A DNA stretch of 64,000 nt from Methylobacillus gramineus. GTDB taxonomy: Bacteria > Pseudomonadota > Gammaproteobacteria > Burkholderiales > Methylophilaceae. Position 1 is the first letter of the stretch. Each line of letters starts with the position of its first letter. Below the pieces are notes generated by a model. It saw only the letters and a list, made by a program, of their open reading frames with translations. It ran no database searches and was not told where the DNA came from. The DNA is taken from positions 496,001 to 560,000 of the forward strand of contig NZ_JAJAVE010000001.1 in NCBI RefSeq assembly GCF_020532675.1, in the 5' to 3' direction. This document shows, one piece after another, positions 19,843 through 34,221 of the stretch. Both the position numbers and the translations under genes were made by a program.

Positions 19843-20181
19843 TTATTCACTGTGCGGCAGGATGGTGGCCAGGGCCTGTTTGATCGTCAGTGCATCCGTA
19901 GGACGTACGACTCTGGAGACCTCCAGGCCATCCCGCATGAAAATCAGGGTAGGCCAGAGTTTGACGCTGAAACTGCGGCCCAGGCGTTTACCTTTGCCAT
20001 CTTCAATCCTGATATGCAGCAAGCTGGAGTTAGAGGGCAGTGCCTGCCTGATCAGAGGCTGCGCCGCCTGGCAATAACCACACCAGCCAGTACCAAATTC
20101 CAGTACGACCGCACCTTGCATTGCATCAACTTCTGCGCGGCCGGGATCAGGGGTGATGGGGGTAGGAGGATCTATGCTCAT
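19843..20181 (-). CDS. Thioredoxin family protein
   Basis: This is a 112-residue thioredoxin fold with the active site FGTGWCGYCQAAQPL (CGYC at about residues 34-37) and the cis-Pro region KLWPTLIFMRDG. There is no signal peptide, so it is cytoplasmic. CGYC instead of CGPC, and divergence from TrxA, suggest a specialised thiol-disulfide exchange role. It is transcribed away from the riboswitch-nrdAB operon. Ribonucleotide reductase needs a thioredoxin or glutaredoxin for re-reduction, so a link is possible but unproven. Confidence 0.85.
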   Translation of the reverse strand: MSIDPPTPITPDPGRAEVDAMQGAVVLEFGTGWCGYCQAAQPLIRQALPSNSSLLHIRIEDGKGKRLGRSFSVKLWPTLIFMRDGLEVSRVVRPTDALTIKQALATILPHSE

Positions 20182-20331
20182 TTGAGTACCAATTTTATCG
20201 CCTGTTCAGGTGGACGGCAAAGCGCATTTGATGGTTCCTCATCTGCCTATTCATCATGAAAAAATTTATGCTTATAAATCCGATATATATGAAATTTACC
20301 CTGCAATATATCAATATGTAGTGGTTTTAAA

Positions 20332-20362
20332 TTCACACAACCCCATTTCCTTGGGGTATAGT
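20332..20362 (+). promoter_or_regulatory. Possible promoter for the riboswitch-nrdAB transcript
   Basis: TTCACA (20332-20337) and TATAGT (20357-20362) are spaced 19 bases apart. A start point near 20369 would lie just before the riboswitch P1 stem. The spacer holds a palindrome, ACCCCA-N6-TGGGGT (20340-20357), which could be an operator. The spacing is longer than ideal. Confidence 0.4.
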
Positions 20363-20370
20363 TCAGGCCA

Positions 20371-20566
20371 CTACGGTGTTCGACTTTCATTCAAAAAGCC
20401 GACAATAAGGGAATGCGGTGCAAGGGGATAAGCTGTAATCCGCAGCTGCCCCCGCAACTGTAACCGGATAGCAGATTGCCAACTCTGATGGTCACTGAGT
20501 CTGTCTTGATTGGCTTGGGAAGGCCGACAATCTGCGATGACCCGGAAGCCAGGAAACCTGCTGTAG
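20371..20566 (+). ncRNA. Cobalamin (B12) riboswitch
   Basis: The P1 stem pairs CTACGG (20371-20376) with CTGTAG (20561-20566). Conserved internal elements are present: AAGGGAATGCGGTGCAA, then CCGCAGCTGCCCCCGCAACTGTAA, and the B12 box AAGCCAGGAAACCTGC at 20546-20561. These are the hallmark blocks of the adenosylcobalamin riboswitch. It precedes nrdA with about 190 bases of expression platform, so adenosylcobalamin should repress this class Ia ribonucleotide reductase. This is known logic in organisms that also own a B12-dependent class II enzyme; that second enzyme is not in the window. Confidence 0.95.
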
Positions 20567-20757
20567 ATAAATTTCATAACGTTTGAGGCGGGGTGTTCTC
20601 GGCAGATGCACGGTGTGTTGGCGCGTATCGCTTTCATGCTGTTTGCAATGCTGGCCTTGAGCCGGTGCATATTCGTCAGATTGATGCTTGATCCAGGCTT
20701 GGCCTGGGCTTGATGCGCTGTGTTGAGGCACCCTGCTTCCTGAACTGGGAGCCATAA
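20567..20757 (+). other. nrdA leader and riboswitch expression platform
   Basis: This is the 191-base stretch between the aptamer and nrdA. It contains a short hairpin CCAGGC-TTG-GCCTGG (20693-20707), a Shine-Dalgarno-masking hairpin (20735-20752) and a 35-codon hydrophobic reading frame (20606-20713, starting MHGVLARIAF) with no good ribosome binding site. There is no T-run terminator, so control is more likely at translation initiation. Confidence 0.5.
20735..20752 (+). promoter_or_regulatory. Hairpin that masks the nrdA ribosome binding site
   Basis: GCTTCC (20735-20740) pairs with GGGAGC (20747-20752) over a 6-base loop, including one G-U pair. GGGAG is the nrdA Shine-Dalgarno sequence, 6 bases ahead of the ATG at 20758. 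It is a ready-made sequester stem for a B12-controlled switch. Confidence 0.55.
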
Positions 20758-23037
20758 ATGACAAAGTACGAATCTATGAAAGCCACCAAGCGTGATGGTC
20801 GCTTGGAGCCTATCAATCTCGACAAAATTCACCGCGTGATTGATTGGGCAGCACAGGGCCTGAATAATGTGTCGGTTTCCCAGGTGGAGTTACGTTCCCA
20901 CATCCAGTTTTATGATGGCATTCGTACCGATGCTATCCACGAAACGATTATAAAGTCTGCCGCCGATCTGATTTCTGAAGAAACACCAGACTATCAGTAC
21001 CTGGCAGCGCGCCTGTCTATTTTTCACTTGCGCAAGATCGCTTATGGCCAGTTTGAGCCGCCGCACCTGTTTGCCCATGTGACGCATCTCACCGAGATGG
21101 GTAAATACGACCAGCATCTCCTGAAGGATTACACTCAGGAAGAGTTTGATGAGCTGAATGGCTATATTGATCACTGGCGCGATATGAATTTTTCTTACGC
21201 CGCGGTCAAGCAGCTTGAGGGTAAATACCTCGTGCAAAATCGGGTATCGAAGAAAATTTACGAGAGCCCACAGTTTTTGTACATCTTGGTTGCTATGTGC
21301 TTGTTTGCCAAGTACACAGGCAAGGCACGCCTGGATTACATCAAGCGTTTTTATGATGCGGTTTCTACCTTCAAGATTTCCCTGCCAACGCCCATCATGT
21401 CTGGCGTGCGTACACCTACTAGGCAGTTCAGCTCATGCGTACTGATTGAGTGTGATGACAGCCTGGATAGTATCAATGCGACTACCAGTGCGATTGTGAA
21501 ATATGTATCCCAACGTGCAGGGATAGGCGTGAATGCAGGACGTATCCGCGCCCTGGGTAGTGAAATTCGCAATGGTGAGGCCCAGCATACGGGTTGCCTG
21601 CCTTTCTACAAGCTGTTCCAGTCTGCAGTGAAGTCTTGCTCGCAGGGCGGTGTACGTGGCGGGGCGGCTACCTTGTTCTATCCAATCTGGCACCTGGAAG
21701 TGGAGTCATTGCTGGTGCTCAAGAACAATCGCGGCGTGGAAGAAAACCGTGTGCGTCACCTGGATTATGGTGTGCAGATCAATCGCCTGATGTATCAGCG
21801 CCTGATTAATGGCAAGAACATTACCTTGTTCTCACCGCATGATGTCCCTGGCTTGTATGACGCCTTCTTTGCTGACCAGGACGAGTTTGAGCGTCTCTAT
21901 TTGCAATATGAGCTGGATGACAGCATCCGCAAGCGCAGCCTGCCTGCTGTCGATCTGTTCTCGCTGGTGATGCAGGAACGTGCGGGTACTGGTCGTATCT
22001 ATATTCAGAACGTCGATCATTGCAATACGCACAGCCCATTTGACCCTGCGGTGGCCCCTGTACGCCAGTCCAACCTGTGTATGGAAATTGCATTGCCGAC
22101 CAAGGCATTGAATGACATCAATGATGCAGAGGGTGAAATTGCCCTGTGCACCTTGTCCGCATTCAATCTTGGTGCCCTGGAGACTCTGGATGAGCTGGAA
22201 GGCTTGTCTGACCTGGTGGTTCGCGCCCTGGATGCCTTGCTTGAGTATCAGGATTATCCAGTGAAAGCAGCGCTGAATGCCACGGATAAACGCCGCTCCC
22301 TGGGTGTTGGCGTGATCAACTATGCTTATTACCTGGCAAAAAATGGTACCAACTACACCAGTAATGATGCACTTGGGTTGACTCATCGCACCTTTGAAGC
22401 CATCCAGTATTACCTGTTGAAAGCATCAGTGCAGTTATCCCGTGAGTTTGGCCCATGCCAGGCTTTCCAGGAAACCACTTATGCCAAGGGTATATTGCCA
22501 ATCGATACCTACAAAAAGGATCTGGATGCGGTGTGCAGTGAGCCGCTACAACTTGATTGGGAAAGCCTGCGCAAGGATATCCAGGCGCATGGCCTGAGAA
22601 ACTCGACCCTGACAGCCTTAATGCCCTCAGAGACTTCCAGTCAGATTGCCAATGCGACCAATGGGATTGAACCGCCACGTGGTCTGGTCTCAGTCAAACA
22701 ATCCAAGGATGGTATTTTGCGTCAAGTGGTGCCAGAAATTGATCGCTTGCGTGACCAGTATCAACTGTTGTGGAAAATGCCTAACAATGAAGGTTATCTG
22801 AAATTGGTTGGGGTTATGCAGAAGTTTGTTGACCAGTCTATCTCGGCCAATACCAACTATGATCCAACCCGCTTTGAAGGTGGGCGTGTGCCGATGAAGC
22901 AACTGCTGAAAGACTTGTTGCAGGTGTACAAGCTGGGTATCAAGACGCTTTACTACCACAACACCCGCGATGGGGCGAGCGATGGCTCAAATGCAGAGGC
23001 AGAAGATGACTGCGCAGGTGGTGCGTGCAAGATTTAA
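20758..23037 (+). CDS. nrdA: Class Ia ribonucleoside-diphosphate reductase, alpha subunit NrdA
   Basis: This 759-residue catalytic subunit reduces ribonucleoside diphosphates to deoxy forms. The N-terminal ATP-cone starts TKRDGRLEPINLDKIHRV. Redox cysteines are Cys227 and Cys464, the thiyl-radical Cys441 is in NLCMEIALPT, radical-transfer Tyr732-Tyr733 are in TLYYHNTRDGA, and the C-terminal pair is Cys752/Cys757 (CAGGACKI end). Numbering runs two ahead of, or two behind, E. coli NrdA; over long stretches the sequence reads almost as the enterobacterial protein. It is first in an nrdA-nrdB-ferredoxin operon behind a B12 riboswitch. The start at 20758 has GGGAG 6 bases upstream. Confidence 0.98.
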   Translation: MTKYESMKATKRDGRLEPINLDKIHRVIDWAAQGLNNVSVSQVELRSHIQFYDGIRTDAIHETIIKSAADLISEETPDYQYLAARLSIFHLRKIAYGQFEPPHLFAHVTHLTEMGKYDQHLLKDYTQEEFDELNGYIDHWRDMNFSYAAVKQLEGKYLVQNRVSKKIYESPQFLYILVAMCLFAKYTGKARLDYIKRFYDAVSTFKISLPTPIMSGVRTPTRQFSSCVLIECDDSLDSINATTSAIVKYVSQRAGIGVNAGRIRALGSEIRNGEAQHTGCLPFYKLFQSAVKSCSQGGVRGGAATLFYPIWHLEVESLLVLKNNRGVEENRVRHLDYGVQINRLMYQRLINGKNITLFSPHDVPGLYDAFFADQDEFERLYLQYELDDSIRKRSLPAVDLFSLVMQERAGTGRIYIQNVDHCNTHSPFDPAVAPVRQSNLCMEIALPTKALNDINDAEGEIALCTLSAFNLGALETLDELEGLSDLVVRALDALLEYQDYPVKAALNATDKRRSLGVGVINYAYYLAKNGTNYTSNDALGLTHRTFEAIQYYLLKASVQLSREFGPCQAFQETTYAKGILPIDTYKKDLDAVCSEPLQLDWESLRKDIQAHGLRNSTLTALMPSETSSQIANATNGIEPPRGLVSVKQSKDGILRQVVPEIDRLRDQYQLLWKMPNNEGYLKLVGVMQKFVDQSISANTNYDPTRFEGGRVPMKQLLKDLLQVYKLGIKTLYYHNTRDGASDGSNAEAEDDCAGGACKI

Positions 23038-23150: not shown

Positions 23151-24284
23151 ATGGCGTATAGCATTTTTTCCAAGAACGACAACGAACAGTTAAAAGAGCC
23201 GATGTTCTTCGGTCAGCCAGTCAATGTTGCGCGGTATGATCAGCAGAAATACCCCGTCTTTGAAAAACTGATTGAAAAGCAGCTTTCCTTCTTCTGGCGC
23301 CCTGAGGAAGTCGATGTGTCACAGGATAGGTCTGATTACCAGAACTTGCCTGAGCATGAGAAACACATTTTCATCAGCAACCTGAAATACCAGACGCTGC
23401 TGGACTCGATACAGGGCCGTAGCCCGAATGTCGCCTTGCTGCCGCTGGTTTCCCTGCCTGAGCTGGAAACCTGGATTGAGACCTGGGCGTTTTCCGAAAC
23501 TATACACTCGCGTTCTTATACCCATATCATCCGTAATATCGTCAATGATCCCTCGGTGATCTTTGATGACATTGTGCGCAACGAGAACATCACGGCACGC
23601 GCGCTGGATATTTCTGGCTATTATGATGACCTTATTCACCAGACCATGCTGTATTCACAGTTGGGCGAAGGTGAGCACATCATTAATGGCGAGCTCAAGT
23701 CAGTCAATCTGCGCCAGCTCAAGAAACAGCTGTATTTGTGCCTGATGAACGTCAATATCCTGGAAGCTATCCGCTTCTATGTGAGTTTTGCCTGTTCATT
23801 TGCTTTTGCCGAGCGCAAGCTGATGGAAGGTAATGCCAAGATCATTCGCCTGATCGCCCGCGACGAAGCCCTGCACCTGACCGGCACGCAGCATATGCTC
23901 AACATCATGCGCTCCGGCCAGGATGATGCCGAGTTTGCGGAGATTGCCGTTGAGCTGCAACAAGAGTGCTTTGAGATGTTCCGTGATGCTGCCAACCAGG
24001 AGAAGAAGTGGGCAGAATACCTGTTCAAGGATGGTTCTATGATAGGCCTGAACAAGGATATTCTCTGCCAATACGTCGAACACATCACCAATAACCGCAT
24101 GGCCGCTGTTGGCTTGCCACCGGCATTTGAAAATGCCAAGAGCAATCCTATCCCATGGATCAATACCTGGCTGGCCTCGGATACGGTTCAGGTAGCACCT
24201 CAGGAAGTTGAGTTGAGCTCATACCTCATTGGTCAGATCGACTCGGAGGTCTCAGCTGACGATCTCAACGACTTTGAACTGTGA
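23151..24284 (+). CDS. nrdB: Class Ia ribonucleoside-diphosphate reductase, beta subunit NrdB
   Basis: This is a 377-residue diiron-tyrosyl radical subunit. Ligands Asp85, Glu116 and His119 (in [11 protein letters not shown]), the radical Tyr123, and the second Glu/His set in [14 protein letters not shown] are all present, as is the C-terminal tail that docks on NrdA ([12 protein letters not shown]). Length and sequence track E. coli NrdB (376) very closely. Its stop codon overlaps the GTG start of the ferredoxin gene (GTGA), so the two are translationally coupled. It is 113 bases after nrdA with a hairpin in the gap. Confidence 0.98.
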
Positions 24285-24697
24285 GTGTTGTTCGCAGCCA
24301 GCACATCAGTTTTAGCCTAACCCCGCATGAGACTCTGCTGGATGGCCTTGAACGTACTGGCCACGAAGTAGAGTACCAATGCCGGGGAGGGTATTGCGGC
24401 ATATGCCGGGTGCGATTGCTTGATGGTGAAATTCGTTATCTGGAACAGCCATTGGCATTTATTGCCTCAGATGAGATTCTACCGTGTTGTTGCGTGCCTA
24501 AGGCGGATATCCGGGTGGATTGTGAGCTCAGGCCCGAGCTGCGGGATTGGCATCAGCAAGAAGATATGTTTCCTGTGCAGCAGTCACTTTTTGCCGAAGA
24601 GTTACTGCATCCAGACCAGCTTATTCCTGCAAAAAAGATGCGCCGAAGAAAATCCAGCAAGCCCAAAGTTCAGGCAAATAATCTATCCCTGTTTTAA
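24281..24697 (+). CDS. yfaE: YfaE-like 2Fe-2S ferredoxin with C-terminal extension
   Basis: This is a 138-residue plant-type [2Fe-2S] ferredoxin. Cluster ligands are Cys34, Cys39 and Cys42 (CRGGYCGIC) and a fourth Cys in PCCCVP (residues 69-71). E. coli YfaE (84 residues), encoded at the same place in nrdAB-yfaE, supplies electrons for assembly and repair of the NrdB diiron-tyrosyl cofactor; the same role is inferred. Beyond about residue 85 there is an unusual tail: QQSLF at residues 100-104, a basic [12 protein letters not shown] stretch at 118-129, and a C-terminal NLSLF (134-138). GTG start, overlapping nrdB. Confidence 0.9.
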
Positions 24698-24787: not shown

Positions 24788-24823
24788 ATAAAATCCCTGC
24801 TTTTCTTCATGTCAGGGAAAGTA

Positions 24824-27085
24824 ATGAAGCAATCTTCAATATTGGCAATTCAGAAGCCAAAGCTTGTTTGCGTCTTGGTGAGTGCATTGTTTGCAATGCC
24901 TACTATTGCTGCAGAAGACAAGCAATCTTCCGTATTGCCAGAAGTCGCTGTTGTTAGCGCAAAAGATGGCAGTGAATCTAAAAGCTATGTTGCCAAAAAA
25001 ACCAGAAGTGCAACAAAGACAGATACCCCGATTGGTCAAATTGCACAATCCGTTTCAGTGGTAGACCGTAAGGAACTGGATGATCGTAATGCCCAAAATC
25101 TTAATGATGCACTCGGCTATACCGCAGGCGTGCGTATGGAAATGCTGGGCATGGATAGTCGTGCAGAGTCCTATAGTATCCGGGGGTTCGCTGGCGGCCT
25201 TAATACCACAGATGATGGGGCTTCTACCTTATTCCTGGATGGGCTGAAAGTGCAGGCTGGTGGGCAATGGAATCGTCCTTCCTTTGATGTGTTTGGCCTT
25301 GAGCGTGTTGAAGTCATGAAGGGCCCATCTGCTGCCATATATGGTCAGATTGCCCCCGGTGGCATTATCAACCTAGTCAGCAAGCGCCCAAATGCCAACC
25401 ATGTCAATGAGTTACGTGTCCAGGGTGGCAGTTTTGATCAATACAAGGCAGCATTCGACTTGGGTGGCAGCCTCGCGGATGATCAGTCTGTACTGTTCAG
25501 GCTTGTCGGTTCCTTCAGCGATGGTAATTCACAGCTAAAACATACTGAGCTTGAACGCACATTTTTTGCGCCTAGCCTGCTGTGGCAGATATCAGACAAC
25601 ACTAGCTTGACCTTGTTGGCGCAATACCAGCGTGACAAGGGCGGCTCGACTTTCCAGTTCCTACCTTACTACGGCACTTACAAGCCATCTTCCAATAGGC
25701 AACGCATGAAGGTGGACACCTTTATCGGTGAACCTGACTTTAATACTTGGGACAGGGAGCAGTCTGCGATAGGCTGGGCATTTGAACATCGTTTCAATGA
25801 CACTTGGCAGTTCCGCCAGAGTCTGCGCTACACCAGCCTGGATTATATCTATGAAGGTATGGTGAGCCGCGCCAATGGATTGAATGGTATTGCGAATCCC
25901 CGCACCGGGACGCGCGGCACTGGCAAGTCTGAAAGTGTCACTGTCGATAATCAATTACAAGCTAACTTCAAGACTGGGGATGTAGGGCATACAGTATTGC
26001 TGGGGCTGGATGCACAGAAGGCTGATTGGAACAACACTCGGGTTAACCAGAACAACCTGCCGGGCGTCAGCATGTTTAACCCGGTATATACCGGGTTTAA
26101 TGGTAACTTTGGATCAGCGGCGACCTCAACACCCTACGACTCCACTCAACGCCAGACAGGCTTCTACGCTCAAGAGCAACTGAGTTGGAACAACTGGCAC
26201 CTGAGCCTGGGTGGGCGTTATGACCGCTTTGATAATCATCTCACTAATGCTGCAGCTAGCCGCCCAGTGGCGGCACATTTTGATTTCGATGATCATTCGT
26301 TCACTTGGCGCACAGGTTTGCTCTACCAGTTCCAGAATGGTATTGCACCATATTTCAGCTACTCCACTTCTTTCGAGCCAGGCAGCATGACAGCCATCAC
26401 GCTCTCGGATAGCCGCAAACCGGTCAAGGGTGACCAGTACGAAGTTGGTGTGAAGTGGGCCCCTGAAAATGGTAATACCTTGCTGACTGCCTCTGTGTAC
26501 GAAATCACTCAGGAAAACCGTTTTGTCACCGAGCCCAATGCGGCGGGCTGTACGACCTTGACTGGTAGTGCTACTGGTTGTTCACGCCAGGTGGGTGAAG
26601 CCAAGATTCGTGGTGTGGAAATCGAGGGTAAGACCAAACTGGGGGAGCACTGGAATCTGTTGGGTAGCTATACCTACATGGATAGTGAAATCACCAAGAC
26701 CGAGCTTGCAGCGGAACGTGGCAATGCCTTGACCCAGGTACCCAAGCATATGAGCTCGCTGTGGGCAAGTTATGTATTTACCAGTGGCTATCTGGATGGA
26801 TTAAATGTAGGCGCTGGCATTCGTTACACTGGGGGCTCTTATGGCTCGGTTTCTCCAGCTGCTGGTGCACCTGCAGATAATCCATTGCTGTATACCGACG
26901 GCTATACCACGTATGACGCGGCAGTTCGCTATAACCTCAAGTCACTCGGATATTCCGGTGCTGAATTCAGTATCAACGCCAATAATCTGACTGACAGGCT
27001 ATATGTCACGTCATGTACTGGTATGACGGCCTGTTTCTATGGCATGGGCCGTAATGTTACTGCTACCCTGAAATACAACTGGTAA
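24824..27085 (+). CDS. TonB-dependent siderophore receptor
   Basis: This is a 753-residue outer-membrane receptor. A signal peptide (VLVSALFAMPTIAA) is followed by a TonB-box region, a plug domain (IGQIAQSVSVVDRKELDDRNAQNLNDALGYTAGV; FGLERVEVMKGPSAAIYGQIAPGGIINLVSKRP) and a 22-strand barrel. It ends with the FhuA-like CFYGMGRNVTATLKYNW. The class is ferrichrome/hydroxamate-type by these motifs; the actual siderophore is not determinable. The start at 24824 is preferred, as AGGGA lies 5 bases upstream; an ATG at 24809 is earlier but weaker. First gene of an iron operon with esterase, DUF3649, PepSY protein and DUF3325. Confidence 0.93.
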   Translation: MKQSSILAIQKPKLVCVLVSALFAMPTIAAEDKQSSVLPEVAVVSAKDGSESKSYVAKKTRSATKTDTPIGQIAQSVSVVDRKELDDRNAQNLNDALGYTAGVRMEMLGMDSRAESYSIRGFAGGLNTTDDGASTLFLDGLKVQAGGQWNRPSFDVFGLERVEVMKGPSAAIYGQIAPGGIINLVSKRPNANHVNELRVQGGSFDQYKAAFDLGGSLADDQSVLFRLVGSFSDGNSQLKHTELERTFFAPSLLWQISDNTSLTLLAQYQRDKGGSTFQFLPYYGTYKPSSNRQRMKVDTFIGEPDFNTWDREQSAIGWAFEHRFNDTWQFRQSLRYTSLDYIYEGMVSRANGLNGIANPRTGTRGTGKSESVTVDNQLQANFKTGDVGHTVLLGLDAQKADWNNTRVNQNNLPGVSMFNPVYTGFNGNFGSAATSTPYDSTQRQTGFYAQEQLSWNNWHLSLGGRYDRFDNHLTNAAASRPVAAHFDFDDHSFTWRTGLLYQFQNGIAPYFSYSTSFEPGSMTAITLSDSRKPVKGDQYEVGVKWAPENGNTLLTASVYEITQENRFVTEPNAAGCTTLTGSATGCSRQVGEAKIRGVEIEGKTKLGEHWNLLGSYTYMDSEITKTELAAERGNALTQVPKHMSSLWASYVFTSGYLDGLNVGAGIRYTGGSYGSVSPAAGAPADNPLLYTDGYTTYDAAVRYNLKSLGYSGAEFSINANNLTDRLYVTSCTGMTACFYGMGRNVTATLKYNW

Positions 27086-32209: not shown

Positions 32210-33202
32210 ATGCAGAAGGCTGATTCTCATTTTATTCCGGTGACATTGCTGACGGGATTCCTGGGTAGTGGTAAAACCACCTTGCTGAACCGATGGCTGC
32301 AACAGCCTGAGATGGCGGATACCTTGGTGATTATCAATGAGTTCGGACAAGTGGGTTTGGATCATCTGCTGGTTGCCCATCAGCCTGATAGCACGACAGT
32401 GGTGGAGTTAAATAATGGGTGTCTGTGTTGTAACTTGCGCACTGATCTCAAGCAAACACTCAAGGACATCAGCTGGCGATTTTCCCGCCATGGGCAGCGT
32501 CAATTCAAGCGCGTGGTCATCGAGACCAGCGGCCTGGCCGATCCGGCTCCTATTTTGCATACCATCATGAGCGATGCCTATGTGTCAGCTTATTACCGTC
32601 TGGACAGCATAGTGACGGTGGTGGATAGCGTACATGTCCTGGAAACGCTGGAGCAGTTTCCTCAAGCGCTAAAACAGGTGGCCGTTGCAGATGTGCTCTT
32701 GCTGACCAAGGTAGACCTGGTAAATGCAGGTGTGCAACATGCGGTGGAAAGCAGGCTGCGGGGCTTGAATCCATCAGCCCGCTTGCATCAAGTGCAAGGC
32801 AGTTCAACGAGCATGGACTGGATATTCAGCGGCCAAGATGCTGACGGGCGATTCCCGCATTGGTTACCAGCACAGGCACAAGCGCCGATGTCTGAGCATC
32901 AACAGCAGAGTATTAGCACTATTAGTGAGCAGCTGGATCTGCCTATAGATTCCGATGTGTTTGCGGCATGGCAGGATGCACTACGCGGCTTTGCTGGCCC
33001 TGGCTTGCTACGTTTCAAGGGCTTGTTTCACCTGGTGGGTCAGTCACAACCCGTGGCGCTGCATGCAGTACAACATGTCATGCATGCGCCTGTGCTACTT
33101 AACTCATGGCCTGAGTCGATGGCTCCGCAAAGTCGCCTGGTATTTATTACGCAGGATATTGCTGAGCAAGATATTTTTGCCTTGCTGCAAAAGCTCCACT
33201 AG
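32210..33202 (+). CDS. COG0523 (CobW/G3E) GTPase
   Basis: This is a 330-residue metal-trafficking GTPase. It has Walker A GFLGSGKTT at residues 16-24, the metal-binding CLCC motif at 71-74 (NNGCLCCNL), Walker B-like VIETSGLADP, TKVD for guanine recognition, and a CobW C-terminal domain (LLRFKGLFHL...HAVQHVMHAP). These proteins insert or deliver Zn or other metals. It is convergent with a second COG0523 gene; the two stop codons share a CTAG. The exact client is unknown; the neighbours favour zinc limitation. Confidence 0.88.
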   Translation: MQKADSHFIPVTLLTGFLGSGKTTLLNRWLQQPEMADTLVIINEFGQVGLDHLLVAHQPDSTTVVELNNGCLCCNLRTDLKQTLKDISWRFSRHGQRQFKRVVIETSGLADPAPILHTIMSDAYVSAYYRLDSIVTVVDSVHVLETLEQFPQALKQVAVADVLLLTKVDLVNAGVQHAVESRLRGLNPSARLHQVQGSSTSMDWIFSGQDADGRFPHWLPAQAQAPMSEHQQQSISTISEQLDLPIDSDVFAAWQDALRGFAGPGLLRFKGLFHLVGQSQPVALHAVQHVMHAPVLLNSWPESMAPQSRLVFITQDIAEQDIFALLQKLH

Positions 33203-34221
33203 ATCTGCATCAGGGCATCACGGATTTTCATCTCGTCCAGCCCTTTGCCAATCAATACCACACGCGTGATAGGTTCCTCTTCATCCCAGCCTTCAAGCAG
33301 GTTAGGTGGATATAGCGTGTGTTGTACGGCATGAATCGCCAAGGGAGCAGGTTGGTCTTCAGCGTGAACGATGCCCTTCATGCGCAGCAGATTTTCGCCA
33401 AATGTTGCACATAACCATTGCAGGGCTGGCTCCAACTGATGCCAGGTAAGCGGTTTAGGCATGGTCACGGTAAAACTGCTGATTTCATCATCATGCACGG
33501 CTTGTGGCAGCATGCCTCGCCCGGCTTTTGACCGGGCGGGAGCACGCAGCCATCGTTGGGGTTGTGCCTGCTTGCCACTGGGATCGAATAATCCAGCATC
33601 AATAATGGCTGCCGGTTCTATCTCGCCATGCTGGATGCGATATTGGGTAGCGCCCGGGTTCAGTGATTCCAGTGTTGCTGAGAGGGCTTGTAGTTGCGCT
33701 TCAGTCGCAAGGTCGGTCTTGGTCAGTAACAATACATCGGCAACGGCTGCCTGCTTGCGTGCCTCAGCATGCTGCTCAATCTGTTGGGTGCCATATATGC
33801 TGTCTATGGTCACGACCACGGCATCAAGCCGATAAGTCGATACGATGACTGGCTCATTCAGCAGATTGGCAAGGATAGGCCCCGGGTCGGCCATACCGGT
33901 AGTTTCTATAACCAGACGATTGAACTTCGGGATGGCTTCCAGCTGGCGCTTGAAAAAGAGGTCGCGCATGGTTTCAGCCAGCTCGTTGCTCAGGGTACAG
34001 CACAGACAGCCAGATTCCAGCAATACGGTATTGTCAGTGATATGCTCGCTTTCCACATTACGGGCCAGAATGTGGTCGAGTCCGGCAGCGCCGATTTCAT
34101 TGATGATGACGGCCGTATCCTTCATGCCTGGATGATTCAGCAACTTGTTAAGCAGAGTGGTTTTTCCACTACCGAGAAACCCGGTCAACAAAGTAAGCGG
34201 GATGCGGTGGTCCAGCGTCAT
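33199..34221 (-). CDS. COG0523 (CobW/G3E) GTPase
   Basis: This is a 340-residue paralogue of the neighbouring gene: Walker A GFLGSGKTT at residues 14-22, CLCC at 72-75, VIETTGMADPGP, TKTD for guanine binding, and a CobW C-terminal domain with LLRMKGIVHAEDQPAPLAIHAVQHTLYPP. It probably acts as a metal chaperone. The 203 bases upstream of its start hold no gene. Transcribed in the same direction as the ZigA-like gene but separated from it. Confidence 0.88.
   Translation of the reverse strand: MTLDHRIPLTLLTGFLGSGKTTLLNKLLNHPGMKDTAVIINEIGAAGLDHILARNVESEHITDNTVLLESGCLCCTLSNELAETMRDLFFKRQLEAIPKFNRLVIETTGMADPGPILANLLNEPVIVSTYRLDAVVVTIDSIYGTQQIEQHAEARKQAAVADVLLLTKTDLATEAQLQALSATLESLNPGATQYRIQHGEIEPAAIIDAGLFDPSGKQAQPQRWLRAPARSKAGRGMLPQAVHDDEISSFTVTMPKPLTWHQLEPALQWLCATFGENLLRMKGIVHAEDQPAPLAIHAVQHTLYPPNLLEGWDEEEPITRVVLIGKGLDEMKIRDALMQI

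Follow-up and report, generated by a model that had tools for sequence, protein, structure and literature searches.

The leader of the nrdAB-yfaE genes in Methylobacillus gramineus appears to be a repressing B12 riboswitch, which at high B12 would hide the ribosome-binding site (RBS) of nrdA and leave the cell to use the B12-dependent class II ribonucleotide reductase (RNR), NrdJ. We put the probability of this reading at roughly 0.9, with the ligand, the direction of control and the translational step being what we infer. The host probably switches in this way between a B12-free enzyme, NrdAB, and a B12-using one, NrdJ. The leader lies in a stretch of 64,000 nucleotides of the M. gramineus genome, called the window below. 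The features on which the argument depends are as follows, in window coordinates.

20357-20579, + strand: cobalamin riboswitch aptamer (RF00174), with the P1 stem at 20371-20376/20561-20566, the B12 box AAGCCAGGAAACCTGC at 20546-20561 (letters checked) and the L5 region at 20446-20460
20585-20600, + strand: P13 hairpin, GAGG-CGGGGTGT-TCTC, whose loop L13 (CGGGG) is complementary to L5 (CCCCG) and which is also the 5' strand of a proposed anti-sequestor
20728-20739, + strand: 3' strand of the proposed anti-sequestor, GCACCCTGCTTC (duplex z -3.8 against 200 shuffled tails)
20735-20753, + strand: predicted RBS hairpin, GCTTCC...GGGAGC, covering the ribosome-binding site GGGAGCC at 20747-20753
20758-23037, + strand: nrdA, class Ia RNR large subunit, 759 aa, with one ATP cone (NF006578; PF02867, PF00317, PF03477)
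23151-24284, + strand: nrdB, class Ia small subunit, 377 aa (NF006576, 737 bits, cut-off 346)
24281-24697, + strand: YfaE-like 2Fe-2S ferredoxin for class I RNR maintenance (NF007985, 99.8 bits, cut-off 75)

The aptamer is identified with little ambiguity. A cmscan search of the whole 64-kb window gave a match to RF00174 of 101.1 bits (E 4e-24; gathering cut-off 31.5 bits) over all 189 model positions (1-189), and this is the sole Rfam family match at gathering score in the window. The two strands of P1, CTACGG and CTGTAG, form five Watson-Crick pairs and one G-U pair (pairing by eye), and 178 nt separate the aptamer match from the start codon of nrdA. The original prediction, which had proposed a complete cobalamin aptamer before nrdA and named the Rfam covariance model as a check, is borne out by this search, and its positions for P1 and the B12 box are correct to the letter. 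The stretch it assigned to the locus, 20371..23037, ends correctly with nrdA; its first base is the start of P1, nrdA proper starting only at 20758.

The genes downstream form an enterobacterial-type class Ia NrdAB, since both subunits score over the cut-offs of the curated class Ia models (NrdA 1509.9 bits against the 'class 1a' model, cut-off 813) and the ATP cone is present; the frame of the YfaE-like ferredoxin overlaps the end of nrdB. The window's NrdA is 90-92% identical to those at loci of Methylobacillus arboreus, Methylophilus methylotrophus and Methylophilus sp. Leaf416. Its upstream neighbours are a MetR-like regulator (228.9 bits, under the MetR cut-off of 382), metE and, on the other strand, a thioredoxin-like gene (36 bits, under its own cut-off). 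Directly after nrdAB-yfaE lies a gene for an FhuA-like TonB-dependent siderophore receptor (24809-27085), with a relative in the same place in two other genomes (G053, G057), and farther on, at 33199-34221, one for a CobW/COG0523-type GTPase (PF02492, PF07683).

A class II nrdJ, which the original prediction expected elsewhere in the genome and proposed to look for by a genome search, was found by that search on another contig (TIGR02504, 572 bits, cut-off 400). Its catalytic part is a frame of 719 aa, and an adjoining part of 232 aa weakly matches the end of a class II model (54 bits); the two frames are taken as a split nrdJ. The host genome has four cobalamin riboswitches. The other three precede genes resembling TonB-dependent receptors, among which only the siderophore-type one exceeds its cut-off, the best match to a B12 receptor reaching 430.9 bits against a cut-off of 599.7. 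Near these three riboswitches, cut-offs are exceeded by genes for an adenosyltransferase, cobyrinate a,c-diamide synthase, BluB and adenosylcobinamide kinase, while the matches of CobN-like and BtuF-like genes stay under theirs. All 10 genomes examined for MetH have it, including the host and G057, a genome of the window's genus to which we return below. The early corrin-ring gene cobI/cbiL gave no match over cut-off in any of nine genomes examined, and by this one marker the host probably imports corrinoids rather than making the corrin ring. Outside B12 supply would then set which RNR is used.

The arrangement is found across the Methylophilaceae. A class I nrdA was detected (E 1e-20) in 56 of 187 family genomes, and these fall into 22 with an NrdA of the window's type and 34 with a distant type. 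The other 21 window-type proteins are 82-97% identical to the window's NrdA, the distant ones 29-33% (NF005544, 1695 bits in G108). By Rfam search the riboswitch stands before nrdA in 53 of the 56 genomes, two others ending at a contig border and one having none: it precedes 21 of 22 window-type genes and 32 of 34 distant-type ones, the remaining two (G129, G136) being those at a contig end. The aptamer and its platform are kept in all 12 nrdA-bearing genera. As for the partner enzyme, nrdJ is present in 55 of the 56 nrdA genomes; G184 and G136 were rechecked separately, because in these two the match to nrdJ might have come from nothing but the distant NrdA, and nrdJ is present in pieces in both. 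Over the whole family nrdJ was scored present in 169 of 187 genomes (E 1e-100), a tally that is approximate because one genome (G035) was miscounted as lacking it and because the distant NrdA itself reaches E 1e-114.

Several genomes have features of their own. The NrdJ of G035 (contig C261, 63236-66508) occupies a single frame of 1099 aa whose match is interrupted for about 1.1 kb, the pattern expected of an intein. G126 has two distant-type nrdA copies on contigs C1 and C2 (L146, L035), each with its own riboswitch. In G185, which is 99% complete, no RNR large subunit (PF02867) was found, neither nrdJ nor nrdA. In the nrdA riboswitch of M. arboreus (L043, 2431-2841; L027 is identical) the aptamer is interrupted by an insert some 190 bases long, with ends that look inverted by eye, and Rfam still matches the riboswitch with 61 bits over 411 bases.

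Among 80 named NrdA homologues, the B12-box pattern occurs upstream on the nrdA strand only at three Methylophilaceae loci, all three with Rfam riboswitch matches. It was found at none of the 77 homologues from outside the family, four of which have less than 3 kb of upstream sequence; stray matches fall on the other strand in one of the 77 (L058) and inside nrdA in another (L109). Rfam searches on seven of the 77 gave no match. This fits the earlier remark that such control is less usual for an enterobacterial-style nrdAB.

How the aptamer might act on nrdA is suggested by the RNA that follows it. In the riboswitches of E. coli btuB and in env8, as described in PMC10653944, L5 (consensus UCCCG) pairs with L13 when a corrinoid binds, which holds P13 and favours an RBS hairpin; the same parts, a kissing loop between L5 and L13, P13 and an RBS hairpin, can be recognized here by sequence and prediction. 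If the likeness extends to function, plentiful adenosylcobalamin, or a related corrinoid, would bind the aptamer, L5 would pair with L13 and hold P13, and the hairpin would then hide the ribosome-binding site of nrdA. NrdAB would be off, and deoxynucleotides would come from the B12-dependent NrdJ. When B12 is scarce, P13 would open and its 5' strand and loop could base-pair with a C-rich stretch that lies directly 5' of the RBS, so that the RBS would be freed and B12-free NrdAB made. The target differs from that of the E. coli switch, as btuB is an uptake gene, whereas here a B12-free isozyme would be controlled.

The components of this scheme were examined in 55 leaders, including that of G057, of which 50 are distinct. 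L5 with CCCCCG and L13 with CGGGG occur in 53 of 53 aptamers (the insert-bearing L027 left out), an agreement that concerns complementarity only. In 49 of the 50 distinct leaders, folding the last 34 bases gave a minimum-energy structure in which at least 3 of the 4 core bases of the RBS are paired. Compared with dinucleotide shuffles, the RBS hairpin is more stable in distant-type leaders (mean z -1.73; p<=0.05 in 18 of 29) than in window-type ones (mean z -1.08; p<=0.05 in 3 of 21), and in the window itself z is -1.15, with 12% of shuffles equally stable. The two strands of the window's anti-sequestor are paired in the minimum-energy fold of 20580-20790. Window-type leaders show a modest signal for this duplex (mean z -1.15; p<=0.05 in 6 of 21, again with dinucleotide shuffles); in the distant type it is no better than shuffles (mean z -0.24; p<=0.05 in 1 of 29). 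An anti-sequestor common to all leaders was accordingly rejected: the duplex has support in part of the leaders, that of the window among them, and not in the distant type. RNAalifold, applied to the 50 distinct leader tails together, returned no structure. A leader-peptide frame at 20606-20713 was also considered, and was dropped because the leaders differ freely in length and, as judged by eye, do not conserve such a frame.

The long leader would also leave room for repression of nrdAB by transcription termination, Rho-dependent or other, in place of RBS hiding. The 178 nt between aptamer match and start codon in the window would be in keeping with such a step, the Streptomyces nrdABS switch is transcriptional according to PMC4991794, and early-ending nrdAB transcripts are reported for Propionibacterium in PMC3848588. 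A scan for terminators of the intrinsic type over 20180-20780 found none, however, and an RBS hairpin is predicted in nearly all leaders. We therefore consider termination unlikely, though worth keeping in mind, and favor control of translation.

A link between riboswitch and nrdJ is suggested by one genome of the window's genus, G057 (99% complete), which is the only one of the 56 nrdA genomes without nrdJ. No NrdJ match was found there at E 1e-5, and its single large-subunit barrel is that of its NrdA. When the 8-kb nrdJ region was compared with the DNA of G057, nothing matched except a 33-base repeat at two places; an assembly gap is an unlikely, though conceivable, reason for the missing gene. 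The nrdA of G057 is likewise the sole one that could be judged to lack the riboswitch: no RF00174 match precedes it. Its leader aligns with the others at both flanks, whereas core motifs, among them the B12 box and the L5 region, are missing, which leaves the remains of a decayed riboswitch. Its L13 is no longer complementary to L5, whereas the anti-sequestor strands still pair (z -4.8); relative to M. arboreus, one pair of this duplex has changed on both sides and one G-U has become A-U, as judged by eye. The loss is not one of B12 sensing in general, since G057 retains MetH and two cobalamin riboswitches elsewhere (the place is listed for one). Across the family the riboswitch seems to go with nrdJ; the link rests on one loss, which is telling if not statistically strong.

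The metE gene beside nrdA in G057 (L183) is cut to about 365 residues, and the genome has another metE, of full length, on a different contig. Reliance of G057 on MetH for its methionine was considered as a cause of the loss and rejected because of this second copy. In another genome (G056), metE matches in two adjoining pieces.

These observations also bear on two further readings. A riboswitch that turns nrdAB on with B12, after the manner of the activating cobT switch of A. halodurans, has a precedent in that an activating corrinoid riboswitch exists (PMC10653944). It is very improbable here: it is hard to see what a B12-free isozyme would gain from being induced by B12, the one nrdA judged to lack the riboswitch is in the genome that lacks nrdJ, and P13 and the RBS hairpin have no bases in common in the window, unlike their counterparts in the activating switch described in that source. 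Least credible is that the aptamer is a functionless relic, as the insert in M. arboreus might suggest, given its retention with the platform in every nrdA-bearing genus and before two distant nrdAB types, and given how different the real relic in G057 looks.

Two nrdAB types, whose NrdA proteins share about 30% identity, are preceded by one and the same riboswitch with its platform, and AACGTTTGAGGCGGGGTGTCCTCGGCAG or a near copy of it lies 3' of the aptamer before both. The core of this post-aptamer element, with at most three mismatches, occurs in 7 of 399 genomes of the order, all from the family itself; the family accounts for 13 of the 399, and the six of these 13 that lack the element also lack an nrdA match (row count). 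Gene order around the riboswitch overlaps between the types as well. In a comparison of 11 loci, the order metR-metE-nrdAB is found with the window type in the window and four other genomes (G053, G057, G062, G050) and with the distant type in two (G066, G069); metR and metE were not found in the 18 kb covered of G065, G075, G055 and G108.

A tree of aptamers was built from 20 of 21 window-type rows (L027 left out), 33 distant-type rows and 17 others. Neither a single clade of all window-type rows (p 0.09) nor one of all nrdA rows (p 0.36) is rejected. Within genus g14, two of three distant-type riboswitches can be grouped with 15 window-type ones (p 0.54), a set that was named after the tree had been seen. 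The third distant-type row of this genus (B_L039, from G070) is placed among distant-type rows of other genera, which speaks against a riboswitch that simply remains at one locus. Exchange of the enzyme behind a standing riboswitch is therefore likely but not proved, and joint transfer of riboswitch and nrdAB may have occurred besides. On balance we lean somewhat towards viewing riboswitch and platform as a standing control cassette, behind which nrdAB would be exchanged and which would decay where the NrdJ partner is lost.

Upstream of the riboswitch there may be a further element, at two positions in the window:

20278-20293 and 20309-20324, + strand: two NrdR-box-like sites, 31 bp apart, the nearer ending 32 nt before the riboswitch match

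The sites were scored against what we take to be the NrdR-box consensus and the usual pair spacing of about 31 bp. They match 9 and 11 of 16 consensus positions, counts that come without a chance level, and the 9/16 partner is weak. In each of the 55 upstream regions that were scanned, the best site scores 11-14 of 16, again without a chance level and with a mostly weak partner, and it mostly lies 29-42 nt 5' of the riboswitch. The presence of an NrdR-like site near the riboswitch in most leaders makes a second layer of control possible. A promoter scan of the leader gave no promoter-like site on the + strand.

B12 control of a class Ia nrdAB is itself of an already known kind, and the original statement that it is established for some actinobacterial RNR genes agrees with the accounts in PMC4991794 and PMC3848588. 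In Streptomyces coelicolor, the class Ia nrdABS genes are under a B12 riboswitch that acts on transcription, with nrdJ in the genome (Borovok 2006, as cited in PMC4991794). The window resembles this case in having a B12 riboswitch directly before class Ia nrdAB and a class II nrdJ in the genome; it differs in that Streptomyces is an actinobacterium with transcriptional control and nrdS in the operon, whereas here the leader is probably translational, yfaE follows and the host belongs to the Methylophilaceae. In Propionibacterium acnes, PMC3848588 describes a cobalamin riboswitch annotated at nrdAB and an NrdR box predicted there, together with a B12-dependent nrdJ. The riboswitch and nrdJ are shared with the host of the window, and a putative NrdR site before nrdAB may be as well; in the P. 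acnes account much nrdAB transcription stops before the first gene and nrdDG has a riboswitch too, whereas no intrinsic terminator was found here.

In its logic the switch would be like the metE B12 riboswitches (PMC9600662), repressing a B12-free isozyme when the B12-dependent one works. Those serve the methionine synthase pair, whereas for the window's metE, next door to nrdA, no cobalamin riboswitch was found even when the threshold was relaxed. In P. aeruginosa, B12 is described as slightly lowering nrd expression independently of a B12 riboswitch (PMC5962746), and for an OM43 strain one cobalamin riboswitch is reported, before btuB (PMC9004378). No description of an nrdA riboswitch in the Methylophilaceae was found in the open-licence literature searched, a scope that does not take in Rodionov 2003 and Vitreschak 2003. 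As far as that literature goes, what is new is that the case extends across the family, that it includes a natural loss, and that the enzyme behind one and the same element changes. Since the family has the switch before two nrdAB types together with a single natural loss, comparison and simple reporters can be used to test why this control is selected for, and the set is suited to testing how the supply of a cofactor decides which of two forms of an essential enzyme is used.
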